In this document: piece after piece, positions 21,860 through 47,962 of the stretch | Position numbering within the stretch: the stretch's first letter is position 1 | Layout: every line of letters begins with the position of its first letter | From: an uncultured Eubacteriales bacterium | GTDB taxonomy: Bacteria > Bacillota > Clostridia > Christensenellales > Aristaeellaceae | Direction: 5' to 3' | Assembly (NCBI GenBank): GCA_902798105.1 | Contig: CADBVG010000008.1 | Location: 1 to 48,224 of the forward strand | DNA length: 48,224 nt | Program-made: the position numbers and the translations under genes | The notes under the pieces: model-generated | Told to the model about the DNA's origin: nothing | The model's database searches: none | The model's input: only the letters and a program-made list of their open reading frames with translations

Positions 21860-21900
21860 TCTGTATGTGTACCATTGATTGAATCGGCAATGTACTGAAA

Positions 21901-21951
21901 AGCGAATCGTCTCCGTGGCCTGCCGGACCGCGGAGACGATTCGCTTTTTTC
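21901..21951. terminator. Bidirectional intrinsic terminator
   Basis: AGCGAATCGTCTCCG and CGGAGACGATTCGCT form a perfect 15-bp stem with a 15-nt loop, followed by TTTTTT on the plus strand and preceded by AAAA, which acts for the minus strand. It ends both the YjcQ-like gene and the phosphotransacetylase gene. Confidence 0.9.
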
Positions 21952-21962
21952 GTGAAGGTTCC

Positions 21963-23072
21963 TTATTCGATGCCCTGGGCGGCGGTGATAATGCTCATCA
22001 GGTAGACCTCCTCGGCGTTGCAGCCGCGGGAAAGGTCGTTGATTGGGGCGTTGAGGCCCTGGAGAATGGGGCCGATGGCCATGAAGCCGCCGAGGCGCTG
22101 GGCAATCTTGTAGCCGATATTGCCGGACTGGATCTCCGGGAAGATGAAGGTGTTGGCATAGCCGGCGACCGCGCTGCCGGGGAACTTGAGCTGGCCGGCC
22201 TCTGGAACAAACGCGGCGTCGAACTGCATTTCGCCGTCGCAGGGGATTTCGGGGTGGGTCTGCTTGACGATGGCAGTGGCCTCGCGCATCATGTCCGGGC
22301 CGGCGCCCTTGGCGGAGCCGTTGGTGGAGTAGGACAGCATGGCGACCTTCGGGTCGATGCCGAAGAGCCTTGCGGTGCGCGCCGTCTCGACGGCAACCTC
22401 CGCCACCTGCTGGGCGGCGCTCAGGACCACATTGCCCTGGTCGTCCAATTTGTCTTCGTAGGAGACGTTTATGGCACAGTCGCCCATGGCGAGCTTTTCA
22501 TCGCCGCGGATGAGGATAAAGCAGGAGGATACGAGGCTTGCGCCTTCCCGGGTCTTGACCAGTTGGAGCGCGGGCCGCACGGTGTCGGCGGTGGAATAGG
22601 TCGCGCCGCCGAGCAGGGCGTCGGCCAGGCCTTCCTTGACCAGCATGGTGCCGAAATAGTTGGGCTTGAGTAGCATTTCCCGTGCCTGCTCCGCGGTGGC
22701 CTTGCCCTTGCGCAGCGCCACAAAATCATCCACAAGCCTGTCCATATCGGGATAGGCGGCGGGGTCGATGATCTCAAGCCCCTCGATGTCGAAGCTGCCC
22801 TCGGCGGCGGCTGCCCTGACCGCGTCCACATTGCCGATGAGCACGGGGGTGATGAAGCCGTCCTGCTTCAAACGCGCGGCGGCCTCGAGAATTCGGGCGT
22901 CGGTGCCTTCTGTGAAGACAAGGCTGCGGGGGTTGGCCTTGAGGCGCTCGATGAGGGAATCAAGCATTCCGGGAACGGCGCTTTCCGTGGCGGCGGATTC
23001 TTCCGCCCAGGCCGGTGTGGACAGGCTCAAAAGCATCAGAAGCGCCAGTATCATGCCCAGGTATTTTTTCAT
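21963..23072 (-). CDS. pta: Phosphate acetyltransferase with an N-terminal signal peptide
   Basis: A 369-residue protein. From about residue 36 it is a complete phosphotransacetylase (acetyl-CoA + Pi to acetyl phosphate + CoA): LIERLKANPRSLVFTEGTDARILEAA, KPNYFGTMLVKEGLADALLGGA, MLSYSTNGSAKG (active-site region), and FPEIQSGNIGYKIAQRLGGFMAIGPILQGL. The first 23 residues are a textbook Sec signal: MKK, a hydrophobic LGMILALLMLLSL stretch, then AWA-EE for cleavage. AGGAGG is 7 nt before this ATG, while the internal ATG before LDSLIERL has no ribosome site, so the signal is probably translated. Pta is normally cytosolic and needs CoA, so export would be surprising. No acetate kinase gene is adjacent. 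A shared terminator follows. Confidence 0.9.
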   Translation of the reverse strand: MKKYLGMILALLMLLSLSTPAWAEESAATESAVPGMLDSLIERLKANPRSLVFTEGTDARILEAAARLKQDGFITPVLIGNVDAVRAAAAEGSFDIEGLEIIDPAAYPDMDRLVDDFVALRKGKATAEQAREMLLKPNYFGTMLVKEGLADALLGGATYSTADTVRPALQLVKTREGASLVSSCFILIRGDEKLAMGDCAINVSYEDKLDDQGNVVLSAAQQVAEVAVETARTARLFGIDPKVAMLSYSTNGSAKGAGPDMMREATAIVKQTHPEIPCDGEMQFDAAFVPEAGQLKFPGSAVAGYANTFIFPEIQSGNIGYKIAQRLGGFMAIGPILQGLNAPINDLSRGCNAEEVYLMSIITAAQGIE

Positions 23073-23125
23073 AATAATCCTCCTGCTGTTAATGTGTTAA
23101 CATGTATATGTCGTGGCGGCAAAGC

Positions 23126-23215
23126 GGAAACGCGCGCTACCCGCGCACGAGGACCGGAAACGCGCGCGCTACCCGCGCACGAGGACCGGAAACGCGCGCG
23201 CTACCCGCGCACGAG
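23126..23215. repeat. Three tandem 30-32 bp GC-rich units
   Basis: GGAAACGCGCG(CG)CTACCCGCGC-ACGAGGACC is repeated three times head to tail (30, 32 and 28 bp) upstream of pta. There are no spacers, so it is not a CRISPR array. CGCGCGCG tracts make each unit able to form alternative structures. Confidence 0.85.
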
Positions 23216-23267: not shown

Positions 23268-23467
23268 AAAGCGACAGATACACCCGGAACTGAATAGTTG
23301 CATTGGCATTATATACCTTCGCGGAGTTGGCTGTCAATCATAAAGGCCGCGGGAGCGCTGCGAAGACGGCTTCTTCTATCGGGACAGCGAAATGATTGCC
23401 TTCCCGATCAACTGCCGCGCCGAAGGTTCAACCGTCCATTCAGGCAATGTCATCAACTGAGCAGAAA

Positions 23468-39984: not shown

Positions 39985-40124
39985 TAAGGAAATACCGCAC
40001 AATACGGCGGCACATCTGGCGGTGCCTTTTCCGACATCTGCTGCTTGCAGATTTCTCGATTTACCGCCAGTAAACCTTCGAAACACTCGCCAGCTGACCA
40101 CCTTAATTGCGCGGTATTTCCATA
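39985..40124. mobile_element. MITE-like element, simple copy (E2)
   Basis: About 140 bp bounded by AAGGAAATACCGCACAAT and ATTGCGCGGTATTTCC. It is nearly identical to 33551-33718 but lacks about 26 bp near the right. Short ATA sequences flank both ends and may be target duplication. It lies between gerM and rph-rdgB, ending 27 nt before the rph start. Confidence 0.85.
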
Positions 40125-40150
40125 ACCAAAGCTACAGGAGGCTTACAGAC

Positions 40151-41479
40151 ATGAATACAATTGATCGCGCCCCGGACGAGCTGCGCATGGTGCGCATACT
40201 GCCGGATTATACCGAGATGGCCGCGGGCTCCGTGCTGATCTGCTGCGGAAGAACGAAGGTGATCTGTACCGCCTCGGTACAGGACGGCGTGCCTCCGTTC
40301 CTGCGGGGCAGGGGGAAGGGCTGGCTGACGGCGGAATACGCCATGCTGCCCGGCTCCACGCCACAGCGCAAGCAGCGGGACGGCGTGAAGAAGGACGGTC
40401 GGGGCGTGGAGATCCAGCGCCTGATCGGCCGTTCCCTGCGCGCCGCCTGCGACCTGACCCGCCTGGGCGAGCGCACGATCTACATCGACTGCGACGTGAT
40501 CCAGGCCGACGGCGGCACCCGCACGGCGTCCATCACCGGGGCCTTCGTTGCGCTGTGCATCGCCGTGGACAAGCTGATGCAGCAGGGCGCGCTGGTGGAT
40601 TCGCCCATCATACGCCAGGTGGCGGCGGTATCCGCGGGCGTCATCGACGATGTCTGCACCCTTGACCTGGAATACGCCCAGGACAGCCGCGCCCAGGTGG
40701 ACATGAACATCGTCATGACCCGGGACGGCAAGGGCAACCTGGGCTTCGTCGAGGTGCAGGGCACCGGCGAGGGCCGCTGCTATACGCGCGCCGAGCTGGA
40801 CCGGCTGCTGGCCCTGGGCGAGAAGGGCTGCCTTGAACTGATGCAGGCCCAGCGGGAAGCCCTGGGCAACCGCGCAGAAGTCATCTGCAAAAAACCGCTC
40901 CTGGTGCTGGCCAGCAACAACTTCGGCAAGCTGAAGGAGCTCAAGCAGATGCTGGGCGACCGCTTCGACGTTCGTTCCATGCGGGAGATGGGCGTGGAGG
41001 CCGACGTGGAGGAGACGGGGGAGACCTTCGAGGAGAACGCGCTGATCAAGGCCAGGGCGCTGATGGAAATATGCAACTGCGCCACGCTGGCCGACGATTC
41101 CGGGCTGTGCGTGGACCAGCTGGGGGGACGCCCCGGCGTGCATTCTGCCCGCTACTGTGGCGTGCACGGTGACGATGAGGCCAACAACCAGCTGCTGCTG
41201 AAGGAGCTGTCCGACAAGCCCGCGCCCCACAGGGCCCACTACGGCGCGGCACTGGCGCTGTGCCGCCCGGGGCGGGAGCCGGTCATCGTCTATGGCCGCT
41301 GTGAGGGCGAGATCATCGGTGAATACCGGGGCACGGGCGGCTTTGGCTATGACCCCCTGTTCCTGTCCGACGACCTGGGCGTCACCTTCGCCGAAGCCGA
41401 TCCCCAGGCCAAGAACGGCGTCTCTCACCGGGCAAGGGCCATACAGAAGCTGATCGCCGCGCTGGAGGCGGAGGCATGA
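40151..41479 (+). CDS. rph: RNase PH - RdgB/HAM1 fusion
   Basis: A 442-residue bifunctional protein. Residues 1 to about 240 are RNase PH, a phosphorolytic 3' exoribonuclease that trims tRNA ends: [51 protein letters not shown] and [19 protein letters not shown]. From about 250 it is the inosine/xanthosine triphosphate pyrophosphatase RdgB (HAM1): [59 protein letters not shown] and [10 protein letters not shown]. In Bacillus rph and ysnA (rdgB) are neighbours; here they are one frame. CAGGAGG lies 9 nt before ATG 40151. The next gene overlaps by four bases (ATGA). Confidence 0.94.
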
Positions 41480-43806: not shown

Positions 43807-43878
43807 AACAAAGCATGTGTATGTCCTGTCTCACCAGCAGCGATGTACATGCCAGTCAATTGCAGTTGGAGGACTGAA

Positions 43879-44808
43879 ATGAGCGTAGCAGATATCTTGA
43901 AGGACCGTATGGCGTTTTCGTTTGAGGTGTTTCCGCCGAAGACCGACGCCGGCATGGCCAAGCTTTGCGGCGAGGGCGGCGTGCTGGACCACCTGTATGA
44001 ATTGAACCCGGACTACATCTCCTGCACCTACGGCGCGGGCGGCACCAACGTGGGCAAGAACCTGGAGGTGCTGGACAAGATCCAGAAGGACGGCAAGAGC
44101 ATCCCCGTGACCCACTTCACCTGCGTGGCCAACACGAAGGAGGGTATCAAGGATCAGCTGCAAACCTACCTGGACCATGGCATCAACCACATGCTGGCCC
44201 TGCGCGGCGATATTCCCTTCGGATGGACGGGCACCGGCGGCGACCTGCACTATGCCACGGAGCTTGTAAAGTTCACCCGCAAGACCTTCGGCGACCAGTT
44301 CACCATCGCCGTGGCCGGCTCGCCGGAAGGCCACATCGCCTGCCGCAGCATCGAGGCGGACATCTCCTTCCTGAAGCAGAAGCAGGACGAGGGCGCCGAC
44401 TACATCATGACCCAGCTGTGCTGGGACATGGACCAGTTCCGCTGGTGGCTGGACGCCATCCGCGCCGCGGGCGTGTACATGCCCGTTGACGTGGGTATCA
44501 TGCCGGTGCTGGATATCGCCGCCACCATCAACATGGCCCTCAGCCGCAACGGCTGCGTGATGCCGCGCGAGCTTGCCGAGATCATCTCCAAGCACTGGAT
44601 CTTCCCGAACCCCTTCGCCCCCGGTGAGAGCGAGGAATCCATCGCCGCCAAGAAGGCTGCCTTCAAGGAGGCCGGCATGGCATACACCATCCGCCTGATC
44701 GACGAGTACAGGGCCTGCGGCATCGACGGCATTCATCTGTACGCGCTGAACAAGTACGAGGATGTCACCCGGCTGGTGAAGGAGTCCGGCATCGTCGACC
44801 TGATCTGA
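43879..44808 (+). CDS. metF: 5,10-methylenetetrahydrofolate reductase
   Basis: A 309-residue TIM-barrel flavoenzyme that reduces methylene-THF to methyl-THF, the last step of the methyl branch of the Wood-Ljungdahl pathway. Signatures are FSFEVFPPKTDAG (residues 14-26), SCTYGAGGTN, THFTCVANT, HMLALRGDIP, AVAGSPEGH, MTQLCWDMDQFRWW and MPVDVGIMPV. In many acetogens MetF pairs with MetV, an iron-sulfur partner; no MetV gene is present here. TTGGAGG lies 7 nt before ATG 43879. It heads the run cooC-acsD-acsC-acsE, 12 nt before cooC. Confidence 0.94.
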   Translation: MSVADILKDRMAFSFEVFPPKTDAGMAKLCGEGGVLDHLYELNPDYISCTYGAGGTNVGKNLEVLDKIQKDGKSIPVTHFTCVANTKEGIKDQLQTYLDHGINHMLALRGDIPFGWTGTGGDLHYATELVKFTRKTFGDQFTIAVAGSPEGHIACRSIEADISFLKQKQDEGADYIMTQLCWDMDQFRWWLDAIRAAGVYMPVDVGIMPVLDIAATINMALSRNGCVMPRELAEIISKHWIFPNPFAPGESEESIAAKKAAFKEAGMAYTIRLIDEYRACGIDGIHLYALNKYEDVTRLVKESGIVDLI

Positions 44809-44820
44809 TTGGGAGAAACA

Positions 44821-45594
44821 ATGTCAACACATGTCATCGCTGTGGCCGGCAAGGGGGGCGTCGGCAAGACGACCACCTGCGGCATGATCATCGAGAGCCT
44901 CTGTCAGAAGGGGAAGGGTCCCCTTCTGGTGGTGGACGCCGACGCCAATTCCAACCTCAACGAGGTGCTTGGCGTCGACGTGGATACCACTTTGGGCAGC
45001 ATCCGCGAGGAGATGGCCCACGCTGAGCTACTGCCCGTCAGCCCCATACCCAAGGGCATGACCAAGCAGGAGTACGCCGAATACAAGTTCAACGAAGCCC
45101 TGATCGAGGAGGACGACTATGACATGCTGGTCATGGGCCGCACCGAGGGCAAGGGCTGCTATTGCTATGTCAACGGCGTATTGAAGACTCAGATCGACAA
45201 GTACTATGGTCGCTACAAGTACATGGTGATCGACAACGAGGCCGGCCTTGAGCACATCGCCCGGGGCACGCTGCCCCACGTCGATACCCTGCTGCTGGTC
45301 AGCGACTGCTCCCGCCGGGGCATACAGGCCGCCGCGCGCATCGCCGAAATGGTGGACGCGCTGGAGCTGAAGCCCGGCGTCATGAAACTGATCGTTAACC
45401 GCGCGCCGGGCGGACGCCTGAACGACGGGGTTAAGGAAGAGATTGAGAAACACGGCCTGGACCTGGTGGGCGTGCTGCCGCAGGATGACCTCGTCTACGA
45501 GTTCGACTGCGAGGGCAAGCCCAGCGCCAAAGTACCAGATGACGCCCCGGTGAAGGTCGCGCTGAAATCAATCATGGACACTTTGCAACTCTAA
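44821..45594 (+). CDS. cooC: CooC/AcsF-type CODH/ACS maturation ATPase
   Basis: A 257-residue MinD-type ATPase that delivers nickel during maturation of CODH or acetyl-CoA synthase. The deviant Walker A GKGGVGKTT is at residues 10-18, the switch I region VDADANSNL near 38-46, a GCYCYVN motif (CxC, metal-binding at the dimer interface) near 115, and IDNEAGLEHIARGT near 139. GGGAG precedes ATG 44821. It is adjacent to acsD and downstream of cooT, all consistent with nickel insertion. The names cooC and acsF are both used for this family. Confidence 0.92.
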   Translation: MSTHVIAVAGKGGVGKTTTCGMIIESLCQKGKGPLLVVDADANSNLNEVLGVDVDTTLGSIREEMAHAELLPVSPIPKGMTKQEYAEYKFNEALIEEDDYDMLVMGRTEGKGCYCYVNGVLKTQIDKYYGRYKYMVIDNEAGLEHIARGTLPHVDTLLLVSDCSRRGIQAAARIAEMVDALELKPGVMKLIVNRAPGGRLNDGVKEEIEKHGLDLVGVLPQDDLVYEFDCEGKPSAKVPDDAPVKVALKSIMDTLQL

Positions 45595-45648
45595 GGTGTG
45601 CGCGTACCACGCATTCCGATCGACAACGACAAACAGGGGGAATACAAC

Positions 45649-46593
45649 ATGGCTTTCACTCCGAAAAAGCAGGCGTTTACGGCCAGGATCAATGCCGTCA
45701 CCCTCGGCACAGGGGACAAGAGCATCGTGATCGGCGGCGAGAACGTGCTGCCCTTCTACACCTTCGACGCACCCATTGAGAACAAGCCCAAGATCGCCAT
45801 CGAAATCTCCGACAAGGGTCTCGAAGGCATCGTCTCTCCTGGCCTGCTTGATTTCTACGCGGGCTGTGAGAGCGTCGTGGACATGGCCAAAAAGGCCGAG
45901 ACGATGGAGGGCGCTTCCGCCATCTGTCTGCACTTCGAGAGCGCCGATCCCAACGGCGACAACACCTCCGTTGAGGATTGCGTGGCCCTCGCCAAGGCGG
46001 TCGCGGACGCGGTTTCCATGCCGATCCTGGTGATGGGCTGCAAGAACATCGAAAAGGACGCCGAGCTGTTCTCCGCCATTTCCGAGGCGCTGCAGGGCAA
46101 GAACATCCTGGTGCTCTCTTCCCGCGAAGAAAACTACAAGACCGTCGGCGCGTCCGCGGGCCTGGCCTACAACCAGAAGGTCGGCGCGGAATCCGCCGTG
46201 GACATCAACCTGGCCAAGCAGCTGAACGTGCTGCTTTCCCAGCTGGGCGTGCCCGCGCAGAGCATCTGCATGAACGTGGGCTCCTCCGCCGCCGGCTATG
46301 GCTTTGAATACCTCTCCTCCACGCTGGATCGCGTGAAGGCCGCCGCTCTGGCCCAGAGCGACGCGCAGCTTCAGATGCCCATCGTGACCCCCATCTCTCC
46401 CGAGACTTGGAGCGTCAAGGAATCCATGTCCCCCGAAGAGGAATCCCCGGAATGGGGTCCCCTTGACGAGCGCGGCATTGAGATGGAAGTGTGCACCGCT
46501 TCTGCCTGCCTGGTGGGCGGTTCCGATATGGTCATCATGAAGCACCCTGCCGCTGTCGCCACCATCGCCAAGTTTATCGACAGCCTGATGTGA
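45649..46593 (+). CDS. acsD: CODH/ACS delta subunit (corrinoid iron-sulfur protein small subunit)
   Basis: A 314-residue protein. AcsD pairs with AcsC to form the corrinoid iron-sulfur protein that carries the methyl group from methyl-THF to acetyl-CoA synthase. Recognised segments are VIGGENVLPFYTFDAPIENKP, GLLDFYAGCESVVDMAKKAE, ICLHFESADPNGDNTSVEDC, LVMGCKNIEKDAEL, and CMNVGSSAAGYGFEYLSS near the C-terminus. ATG 45649 has AGGGGG before it; upstream in-frame codons are untypical. acsC follows after 22 nt. Confidence 0.94.
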   Translation: MAFTPKKQAFTARINAVTLGTGDKSIVIGGENVLPFYTFDAPIENKPKIAIEISDKGLEGIVSPGLLDFYAGCESVVDMAKKAETMEGASAICLHFESADPNGDNTSVEDCVALAKAVADAVSMPILVMGCKNIEKDAELFSAISEALQGKNILVLSSREENYKTVGASAGLAYNQKVGAESAVDINLAKQLNVLLSQLGVPAQSICMNVGSSAAGYGFEYLSSTLDRVKAAALAQSDAQLQMPIVTPISPETWSVKESMSPEEESPEWGPLDERGIEMEVCTASACLVGGSDMVIMKHPAAVATIAKFIDSLM

Positions 46594-46615
46594 GCGGGGA
46601 AGGAGGATATTAACC

Positions 46616-47962
46616 ATGGCTCTGAAAGGTCTTGACATTTTTAAGCTGACCCCCAAGAAGAACTGTAAGGAATGCGGCAGCCCCACCTGCATGGCGTTCG
46701 CGATGAAGGTCGCCTCCGGTGCGGTGCCGATTGAAAAGTGCCCCCACATGTCCGCTGACGCCCTGGCGTCCCTGTCCGAGGCTACCGCGCCCCTGATGAA
46801 GACCATCACCGTCGGCGCCGGCGCCACCGAACACAAGCTGGGCGGCGAGACCGTGCTGTTCCGCCACGAGAAGACCCTGGTGAACCGCAACCTGTACGCC
46901 GTCACCCTGTGCTCCAGCATGAGCGAGGCCGATATCGACGCCAAGATCGCCGAGATCAAGAAGGTCGATTACGAGCGCATCGGCGAGCGCGAGTACGTGG
47001 AGTTCCTGTATCTGGATTACGCTGGCAACGGCGCGGACGCCTATGTGGCGCTGGTCAACAAGGCCATGGCCGCAGAGCGCGCCCTGGTGCTGAACTGCGC
47101 GGACGCCGACGTGGCCAAGGCCGCGCTTGACGCCTGCAAGGCTGCCAAGCCCATACTCAACGGCGCCAGCAAGGACAACCTGGACGCCATGAACGCCGCC
47201 GCCACCGCCGCGGGCGTCACCCTGGGCGTGACCGGCGCGGATATCTCCGAGATCTACGACAACATCAAGGCCCTCGAGGGCAAGGGCAACAAGAACCTGA
47301 TCATCGACTGCACCGGTGCCGACGCGAAGCAGACCTTCGCCAACGCCGTGATGGTGCGCCGCGGCAACCTGAAGGATCAGGACCGCACCCTGGGCTATCC
47401 CTCCATCGTGAACCTGGCGAAGATCGCCGAAGGCGACTTGCACATGCAGACCGCCCTGGCCGCCGCCTTCACCCTGCGCTACGGCTCCATCATCGTCATG
47501 GAGAACATGACCTATGCCGAGGCGCTGGCGCTGTACGGCCTGCGCCAGAACATCTTCACCGATCCCCAGAAGCCCATGAAGGTGGAGCCCGGCATCTACG
47601 CCCTGAACGGCGCGGACGAGAACTCCGTCTGCTCCCTGACCGTCGACTTCGCGCTGACCTACTTCCTGGTCTCCGGCGAGTACGAGCGGTCCAAGTGCCC
47701 GGTCAACCTGCTGATCACCGACGCCAGCGGCATGTCCGTCCTGACGGCGTGGGCCGCGGGCAAGTTCTCCGCCGGCACCATCAAAAAGTTCTTTGACGAG
47801 AACGACATCGAGAACAAGATCAAGTCCCGCACGCTCATCATCCCCGGCAAGGTCGCTGTCATGAAGGGCGAGATCGAGGCCAAGCTGCCCGGCTGGAACG
47901 TGGTGGTCGGCCCCATGGAAGCGGTTCAGCTGGTCAAGTTCATCAAGGATTACACCGCTTAA
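46616..47962 (+). CDS. acsC: CODH/ACS gamma subunit (corrinoid iron-sulfur protein large subunit)
   Basis: A 448-residue protein with an N-terminal [4Fe-4S] cluster domain: cysteines in NCKECGSPTCMAFAMK and a fourth in IEKCPHM (residues about 17-43). A TIM-barrel domain follows, and a C-terminal B12-binding domain contains LLITDASGMSVLTAWAAGKF, FFDENDI and LIIPGKVAVMKGEIEAKLPGW. It holds the cobamide that is methylated by AcsE and demethylated by acetyl-CoA synthase. AAGGAGG lies 7-8 nt before the ATG. The order acsD-acsC-acsE follows; acsA and acsB presumably lie outside the window. Confidence 0.95.
   Translation: MALKGLDIFKLTPKKNCKECGSPTCMAFAMKVASGAVPIEKCPHMSADALASLSEATAPLMKTITVGAGATEHKLGGETVLFRHEKTLVNRNLYAVTLCSSMSEADIDAKIAEIKKVDYERIGEREYVEFLYLDYAGNGADAYVALVNKAMAAERALVLNCADADVAKAALDACKAAKPILNGASKDNLDAMNAAATAAGVTLGVTGADISEIYDNIKALEGKGNKNLIIDCTGADAKQTFANAVMVRRGNLKDQDRTLGYPSIVNLAKIAEGDLHMQTALAAAFTLRYGSIIVMENMTYAEALALYGLRQNIFTDPQKPMKVEPGIYALNGADENSVCSLTVDFALTYFLVSGEYERSKCPVNLLITDASGMSVLTAWAAGKFSAGTIKKFFDENDIENKIKSRTLIIPGKVAVMKGEIEAKLPGWNVVVGPMEAVQLVKFIKDYTA

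Follow-up and report, generated by a model that had tools for sequence, protein, structure and literature searches.

A clade of phosphotransacetylases with predicted signal peptides in gut Clostridia

Introduction

Since its reaction depends on CoA, phosphotransacetylase (Pta) is regarded as an enzyme of the cytosol; CoA is not expected outside the cell, which counts against reading a Pta as an exported protein. The DNA analysed here, hereafter the window, is a stretch of 48,224 nucleotides that makes up the whole of contig C8 of G000, the genome of an uncultured Eubacteriales bacterium. It carries a gene for a Pta that opens with what looks like a secretion leader, and it thus raises the question of whether the leader is in use, how it came to precede a metabolic enzyme and what such an enzyme might do beyond the membrane. 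An earlier note on this DNA had put forward an exported or membrane-tethered form, a moonlighting wall protein, or a chimeric gene made by fusion to the start of a secreted protein.

Results

Gene and product

The open reading frame window:21963-23072 on the minus strand translates into 369 amino acids with the N-terminus MKKYLGMILALLMLLSLSTPAWAEESAATESAVPGMLDSL, after which the frame closes with a stop. The following features were assigned to the gene and its surroundings:

21963..23072, minus strand: leader-bearing phosphotransacetylase gene, 369 amino acids plus stop (translation, profile matches)
23079..23084, minus strand: Shine-Dalgarno sequence AGGAGG, 6 bases ahead of the leader ATG (23072)
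23004..23072, minus strand: predicted Sec signal peptide, residues 1-23, cut expected after AWA (simple rule of our own)
22965..22967, minus strand: internal Met36 at the ordinary Pta start position, without Shine-Dalgarno sequence (alignment)
21975..22964, minus strand: PTA_PTB catalytic domain, residues 37-366 (profiles, conserved segments, structure match)
21898..21948, minus strand: long inverted repeat directly past the stop, likely terminator (read in the sequence)
23308..23337, minus strand: promoter-like site TTGACA-18-TATAAT, 12/12 matches (consensus match only)
23131..23215, no strand: 32-mer in 2.7 tandem copies, downstream of the promoter-like site and ahead of the Shine-Dalgarno sequence

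A shorter terminator-like site is listed for the plus strand at the same inverted repeat. The Pta profiles cover residues 37-366 with scores above their cut-offs (TIGR00651, 329.5 versus 311.2; PF01515, 358.8 versus 24 bits), which over the whole domain makes the protein a member of both profile families, and the AlphaFold model (18 sequences, mean pLDDT 87.7) predicts the Pta domain well. Residues S348, R349 and C351 are invariant in all 18 leader-bearing Ptas described below and in all 40 other rows of the alignment (39 leaderless proteins plus L067, a copy of the leader-bearing L004); this segment we take to be that of Ser309-Arg310 in the M. thermophila enzyme. At the position of Asp316 in the latter, every alignment row with a letter has Glu, the leaderless rows included. 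The description of the protein as a full-length Pta with intact active-site segments is thus borne out, and loss of the active site in the leader-bearing Pta, considered as a separate possibility, was ruled out because the conserved segments are intact.

The first 23 residues and their flank consist of a basic MKK start, an uncharged hydrophobic stretch, AWA and then EE, just as the earlier note had read them, and a similar start was found at 18 loci. By a simple rule, set after this leader had been seen, all 18 leaders possess a basic n-region, an uncharged hydrophobic core and small residues ahead of a cut site that varies. The core lacks charged residues in 18/18 leaders, and 16 of them end in small-x-Ala directly followed by Glu, the exceptions being L009 and L012. 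Over 153 pairs of the 18 proteins, pN amounts to 0.31 in the leader versus 0.07 in the mature part, with pS at 0.53 versus 0.52. The leader is, on this comparison of sequences, free in its letters and held in its character, which is the pattern of a signal peptide.

As the earlier note had stated, the ribosome binding site belongs to the leader start and not to the internal Met, and a Shine-Dalgarno match of at least 4 bases precedes the leader ATG in 16 of the 18 genes (L011 and L013 have GGTGA only). The leader ATG is likely the translation start. It is very unlikely that the leader goes unused and that translation from Met36 yields an ordinary cytosolic Pta. Met36 does align with the start of leaderless homologues (MFENLVEILK...), and Shine-Dalgarno-like stretches precede internal ATGs in L009 and L032, where a second, cytosolic start is possible; against this, Met36 itself has no such sequence, the hydrophobicity of the leader is kept despite its fast sequence change, and in the stretch from the expected cut to the conserved EGTD 8/18 genes have no ATG and 5/18 have none of the three start codons counted, ATG, GTG and TTG.

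It is also conceivable, if distinctly unlikely, that the leader stays uncut and anchors the enzyme at the membrane. An uncharged core of 15 residues would suit an anchor, and in the AlphaFold model a single helix of middling confidence spans residues 2-28 (pLDDT about 72, 65 and 41 per ten-residue block, linker below 50); the small-x-Ala end followed by Glu, on the other hand, looks cleaved. Even with an uncut anchor, the positive N-terminus and the acidic flank would favour a position of the enzyme outside.

That the extension serves as an encapsulation peptide, directing the enzyme into a bacterial microcompartment (BMC), we consider highly improbable. Encapsulation peptides form an amphipathic helix, unlike the uncharged core found in every leader. 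BMC shell genes are present in 4 of the 18 host genomes, but the other 14 gave no BMC match, and G000 is among these, so that by the shell genes of its genome encapsulation of the window's Pta is unlikely.

The body of the enzyme differs as well. The net charge of the enzyme core is -5.1 per 100 amino acids (-6.6 to -4.1) in the 18 leader-bearing Ptas. It is -2.4 both in 12 leaderless Ptas from the same family and in 12 sister Ptas, and 25 ordinary Ptas from the genus have -2.3 (-3.7 to -1.2) over their full length; the leader-bearing body thus has roughly double the acidity of the leaderless Ptas in this comparison, and the ranges do not overlap. Within genome G086, the leader-bearing L005 (residue 25 onward) has a net charge of -15 versus -5 for L155, and within G230 the figures are -15 for L011 versus -5 for L156. 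For a sample of 274 open reading frames (the window plus 400 kb of G000), predicted secreted proteins (n=36, this Pta included) average -6.7 versus -2.2 per 100 amino acids for predicted cytosolic ones (n=162). Judged by its composition, the Pta body looks fitted to the outside.

Distribution and origin

A scan of genome contigs for Pta relatives gave 63 loci. The test for a leader-like start covered distinct Pta loci with ids below L187, and such a start is present in 18 and absent from 92, absence being scored where the match reaches the first 60 query residues; 7 loci with a later match start were set aside, and in the genus scan about half of the Pta matches were turned into loci. In a phylogenetic tree of rows with at least 56% identity and four outgroups, the 18 leader-bearing Ptas form one clade with a support of 100/100 (28 rows, namely the 18 proteins and ten duplicates), nested among leaderless Ptas. 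Since all of them fall into this clade, the charge shift counts as a single evolutionary event.

Counting rows that match from query residue 1 or 2, a leader-bearing Pta occurs in 14 of 308 genomes and six of 50 genera of the window's family. The window's genus contributes 2 of 28 genomes. Across an even, order-wide sample of 396 genomes, two reach an E-value of 1e-150 and, of these two, only G000 has the leader; a few further genomes with a leader-bearing Pta lie outside the searched family list. This distribution suggests that the leader was gained and kept in a scattered group of gut Clostridia, and it confirms that the same kind of N-terminus recurs in related genomes, G012 among them.

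The repeat-rich upstream region described before is real for this gene (the 32-mer array), yet no such array was seen by eye in the up to 200 bases preceding the other 17 leader-bearing genes. With the leader at 18 loci and the array at one, we reject a recent rearrangement at the repeats. The proposal of a chimeric gene survives in its long view, as one clade that arose inside the leaderless Ptas, and falls as an account of a recent event.

Some copies deserve separate mention. The leader-bearing L007 and L008 come from different MAGs and are near copies (97.9% identical over 3.6 kb). The MAG of L007, RUG13571, also holds the leaderless L027; this, together with the near identity to L008, means that L007 may be a stray contig. 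At L202:972-1538 (G082:C173), a copy of the leader-bearing type is reduced to residues 182-368, and as the DNA upstream has no match, this locus is truncated, broken or misjoined.

Genomic setting

Many of the records used are draft metagenome assemblies (G000 itself is in 146 contigs) and, with L007 in mind, an artefact of assembly or binning has to be weighed; we regard it as practically negligible overall and as excluded for the window. The mreB gene on the window's contig is the sole close copy in G000 and is 97% identical to that of G012, a genome of the same genus, whereby mis-binning of the contig was rejected. From the HTH gene to the leader-bearing pta, both genes included, G012 also matches the window at 86-87% DNA identity, which rules out an assembly join as the source of the leader, a join near 23000 having been named earlier as a possible objection; moreover, the 18 loci agree. 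In ten other relatives, homology to this part of the window ends at the end of the HTH gene, and beyond it 8 of the 9 relatives examined there have a different block in common. Among the compared genomes, the pta region at this place is accordingly confined to G000 and G012.

Elsewhere in the window, all on the plus strand, positions 43843-47962 hold Wood-Ljungdahl genes (methylenetetrahydrofolate reductase-like, MinD/ParA-like ATPase, and the delta and gamma subunits of acetyl-CoA decarbonylase/synthase), 40022-41479 is one open reading frame that joins ribonuclease PH (residues 49-281) to an RdgB/HAM1-type NTP pyrophosphatase (294-481) in an apparent fusion, and 1135-2334 combines NadD and YqeK domains in one frame.

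A mobile carrier of the gene was sought in viral contigs, where the scan confirmed no relative, and in plasmids, where 306 records match, all at less than 60% identity. No neighbour gene is common to all leader-bearing loci in the manner of a shared operon; some neighbours recur at a subset, for example a gene for 626-628 amino acids upstream of L006, L008 and L022.

As for the metabolism of the hosts, G000 encodes two further Ptas without leader, one adjoining a full acetate kinase and one adjoining a weaker match, so that the second, ordinary pta with ackA that the earlier note had proposed to look for is present. Another Pta (at least 42% identical with the query across almost the entire domain) occurs in 12 of the 18 host genomes, and five of the six hosts without one (G029, G031, G037, G038, G040) have PduL, which catalyses the same reaction as Pta and directly adjoins acetate kinase in G038 and G040. 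One or the other enzyme is thereby found in 17/18 hosts; in G035 there was neither, nor an acetate kinase match, in genomes that are all drafts and in which absent genes may be gaps. By gene content, the cytosol is served by these other enzymes. The search for an exported acetate kinase started from 37 matches; at 33 loci, 31 acetate-kinase-like open reading frames could be recognised, and no leader was seen on these.

Upstream RNA element

Ten of the 18 leader-bearing genes are preceded by a 5' element that consists of two hairpins, the loops of which are able to pair with each other (kissing, GCGGC/GCCGC). Copies matched by the element model (R1) include:

L005:3928-4003
L006:3929-4003
L007:3928-4003
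L016:3930-4003
L022:3856-3928
L032:3856-3934

In nine of the ten pta genes the element extends to the ATG, the exception being L010, where it is located further upstream. The model search found none at the window's own pta and one weak match elsewhere in G000. Across the family, the model matches in 34 of 150 genomes, with up to 7 matches per genome.

Covariation is strong: among 38 matches (nine of them at pta), 74 cells are changed on both sides versus 16.4 in shuffles, in an alignment fitted to the element model, which was built without the loop pairing. In stem 1, 9/9 pairs have both-side changes, and the loop-loop pairing varies little, with both-side changes in 2 of 6 pairs and an outermost pair that fails in 19 sequences. 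At 29 places away from pta, 26 elements end exactly on an ATG, an ending favoured by the model. Of the 26 ATGs, 22 open a reading frame of at least 80 amino acids. The genes downstream are unlike each other (CBM9-like, MerR, sugar acetyltransferase, Fe-alcohol dehydrogenase, phosphodiesterase and others), with a Pfam match in 6 of 10 proteins scanned. Comparison with Rfam 15 at gathering scores was negative for nine of the ten pta loci and for 12 others, and when one copy was scanned permissively against Rfam 15, only chance-level matches came back. We therefore put the two-hairpin element forward as a candidate structured RNA absent from Rfam 15.

Discussion

The leader-bearing protein is probably a catalytically intact Pta that is exported through Sec and had a single origin, and it is present across six genera of the family. 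Its ancestor would have been a leaderless Pta such as those in MAGs labelled Ruminococcaceae or Oscillospiraceae, which gained, once, the start of a secreted protein; the leader would direct the enzyme through Sec, signal peptidase I would cut after AWA, and a mature enzyme of about 346 amino acids would presumably fold and reside in the wall space or outside. The earlier suggestion of an exported Pta is in this respect strengthened by comparison, through the common leader, the start position, the acidic body and the other Pta or PduL of the hosts.

Export need not mean catalysis. The protein could be retained as a surface binding protein, a moonlighting function for which its reaction outside would be irrelevant; this we judge unlikely. 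It would fit with the lack of an obvious substrate outside, and one study lists Pasteurella multocida Pta among culture-supernatant proteins (PMC10705078). A mere adhesin, on the contrary, would need neither the invariant active-site segments of all 18 proteins nor the strong constraint on the mature part, and these two features make a catalytic or at least a ligand-binding role more likely than pure adhesion.

What an exported, active Pta would do can be stated tentatively: given export, the likeliest role, though at somewhat less than even odds, would be to turn over CoA thioesters or acyl phosphates freed by lysing gut neighbours. The wider proposition that gut Clostridia run the Pta reaction outside the membrane on CoA thioesters or acyl phosphates of their surroundings, and hence that acetyl-phosphate chemistry extends beyond the cytosol, seems to us rather doubtful. 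If true, the chemistry of acyl-CoA or acyl phosphates would be of use to this lineage beyond its cells, as a leader added once, an active site under strong selection and a protein acidified like exported ones would indicate.

Among the titles and abstract openings listed from an open-access library, no Pta with an added signal peptide was found. In the P. multocida study, Pta and malate dehydrogenase are classed as 'Sec/cleaved by SPI', a class assigned by prediction software (PMC10705078), and Mycoplasma hyopneumoniae Pta, with an ordinary N-terminus, is given among proteolytically processed proteins (PMC5593965); the accessible text of these two papers describes no added Pta leader.

The closest known system is the short-form Pta/EutD (PF01515, TIGR00651), with which the leader-bearing Pta shares the whole fold and the active-site segments, and Foldseek returns Bacillus subtilis Pta (1td9) as the best match of the model (51% identity, TM-score 0.89 on the target). 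The leader-bearing Pta differs in having a secretion leader and a more acidic body and, relative to 1td9, in 13 residues inserted after GDCAIN, an insertion present in its leaderless sisters too. Leaderless Ptas from MAGs labelled Ruminococcaceae, Oscillospiraceae or Clostridiales (L018-L021, L023-L031, L046) are 77-83% identical over the matched part, and it is among them that the leader-bearing clade nests; they start with MFEN or MFEK behind GGAGG, without a leader, and have neighbours in common that are absent at the leader-bearing genes. PduL (PF06130) belongs to a different Pfam family. Finally, surface-exposed moonlighting enzymes are likewise enzymes of central metabolism found outside the cytosol and, to our knowledge, are usually described without signal peptide; the Pta described here differs from such non-classical proteins by its conserved leader.
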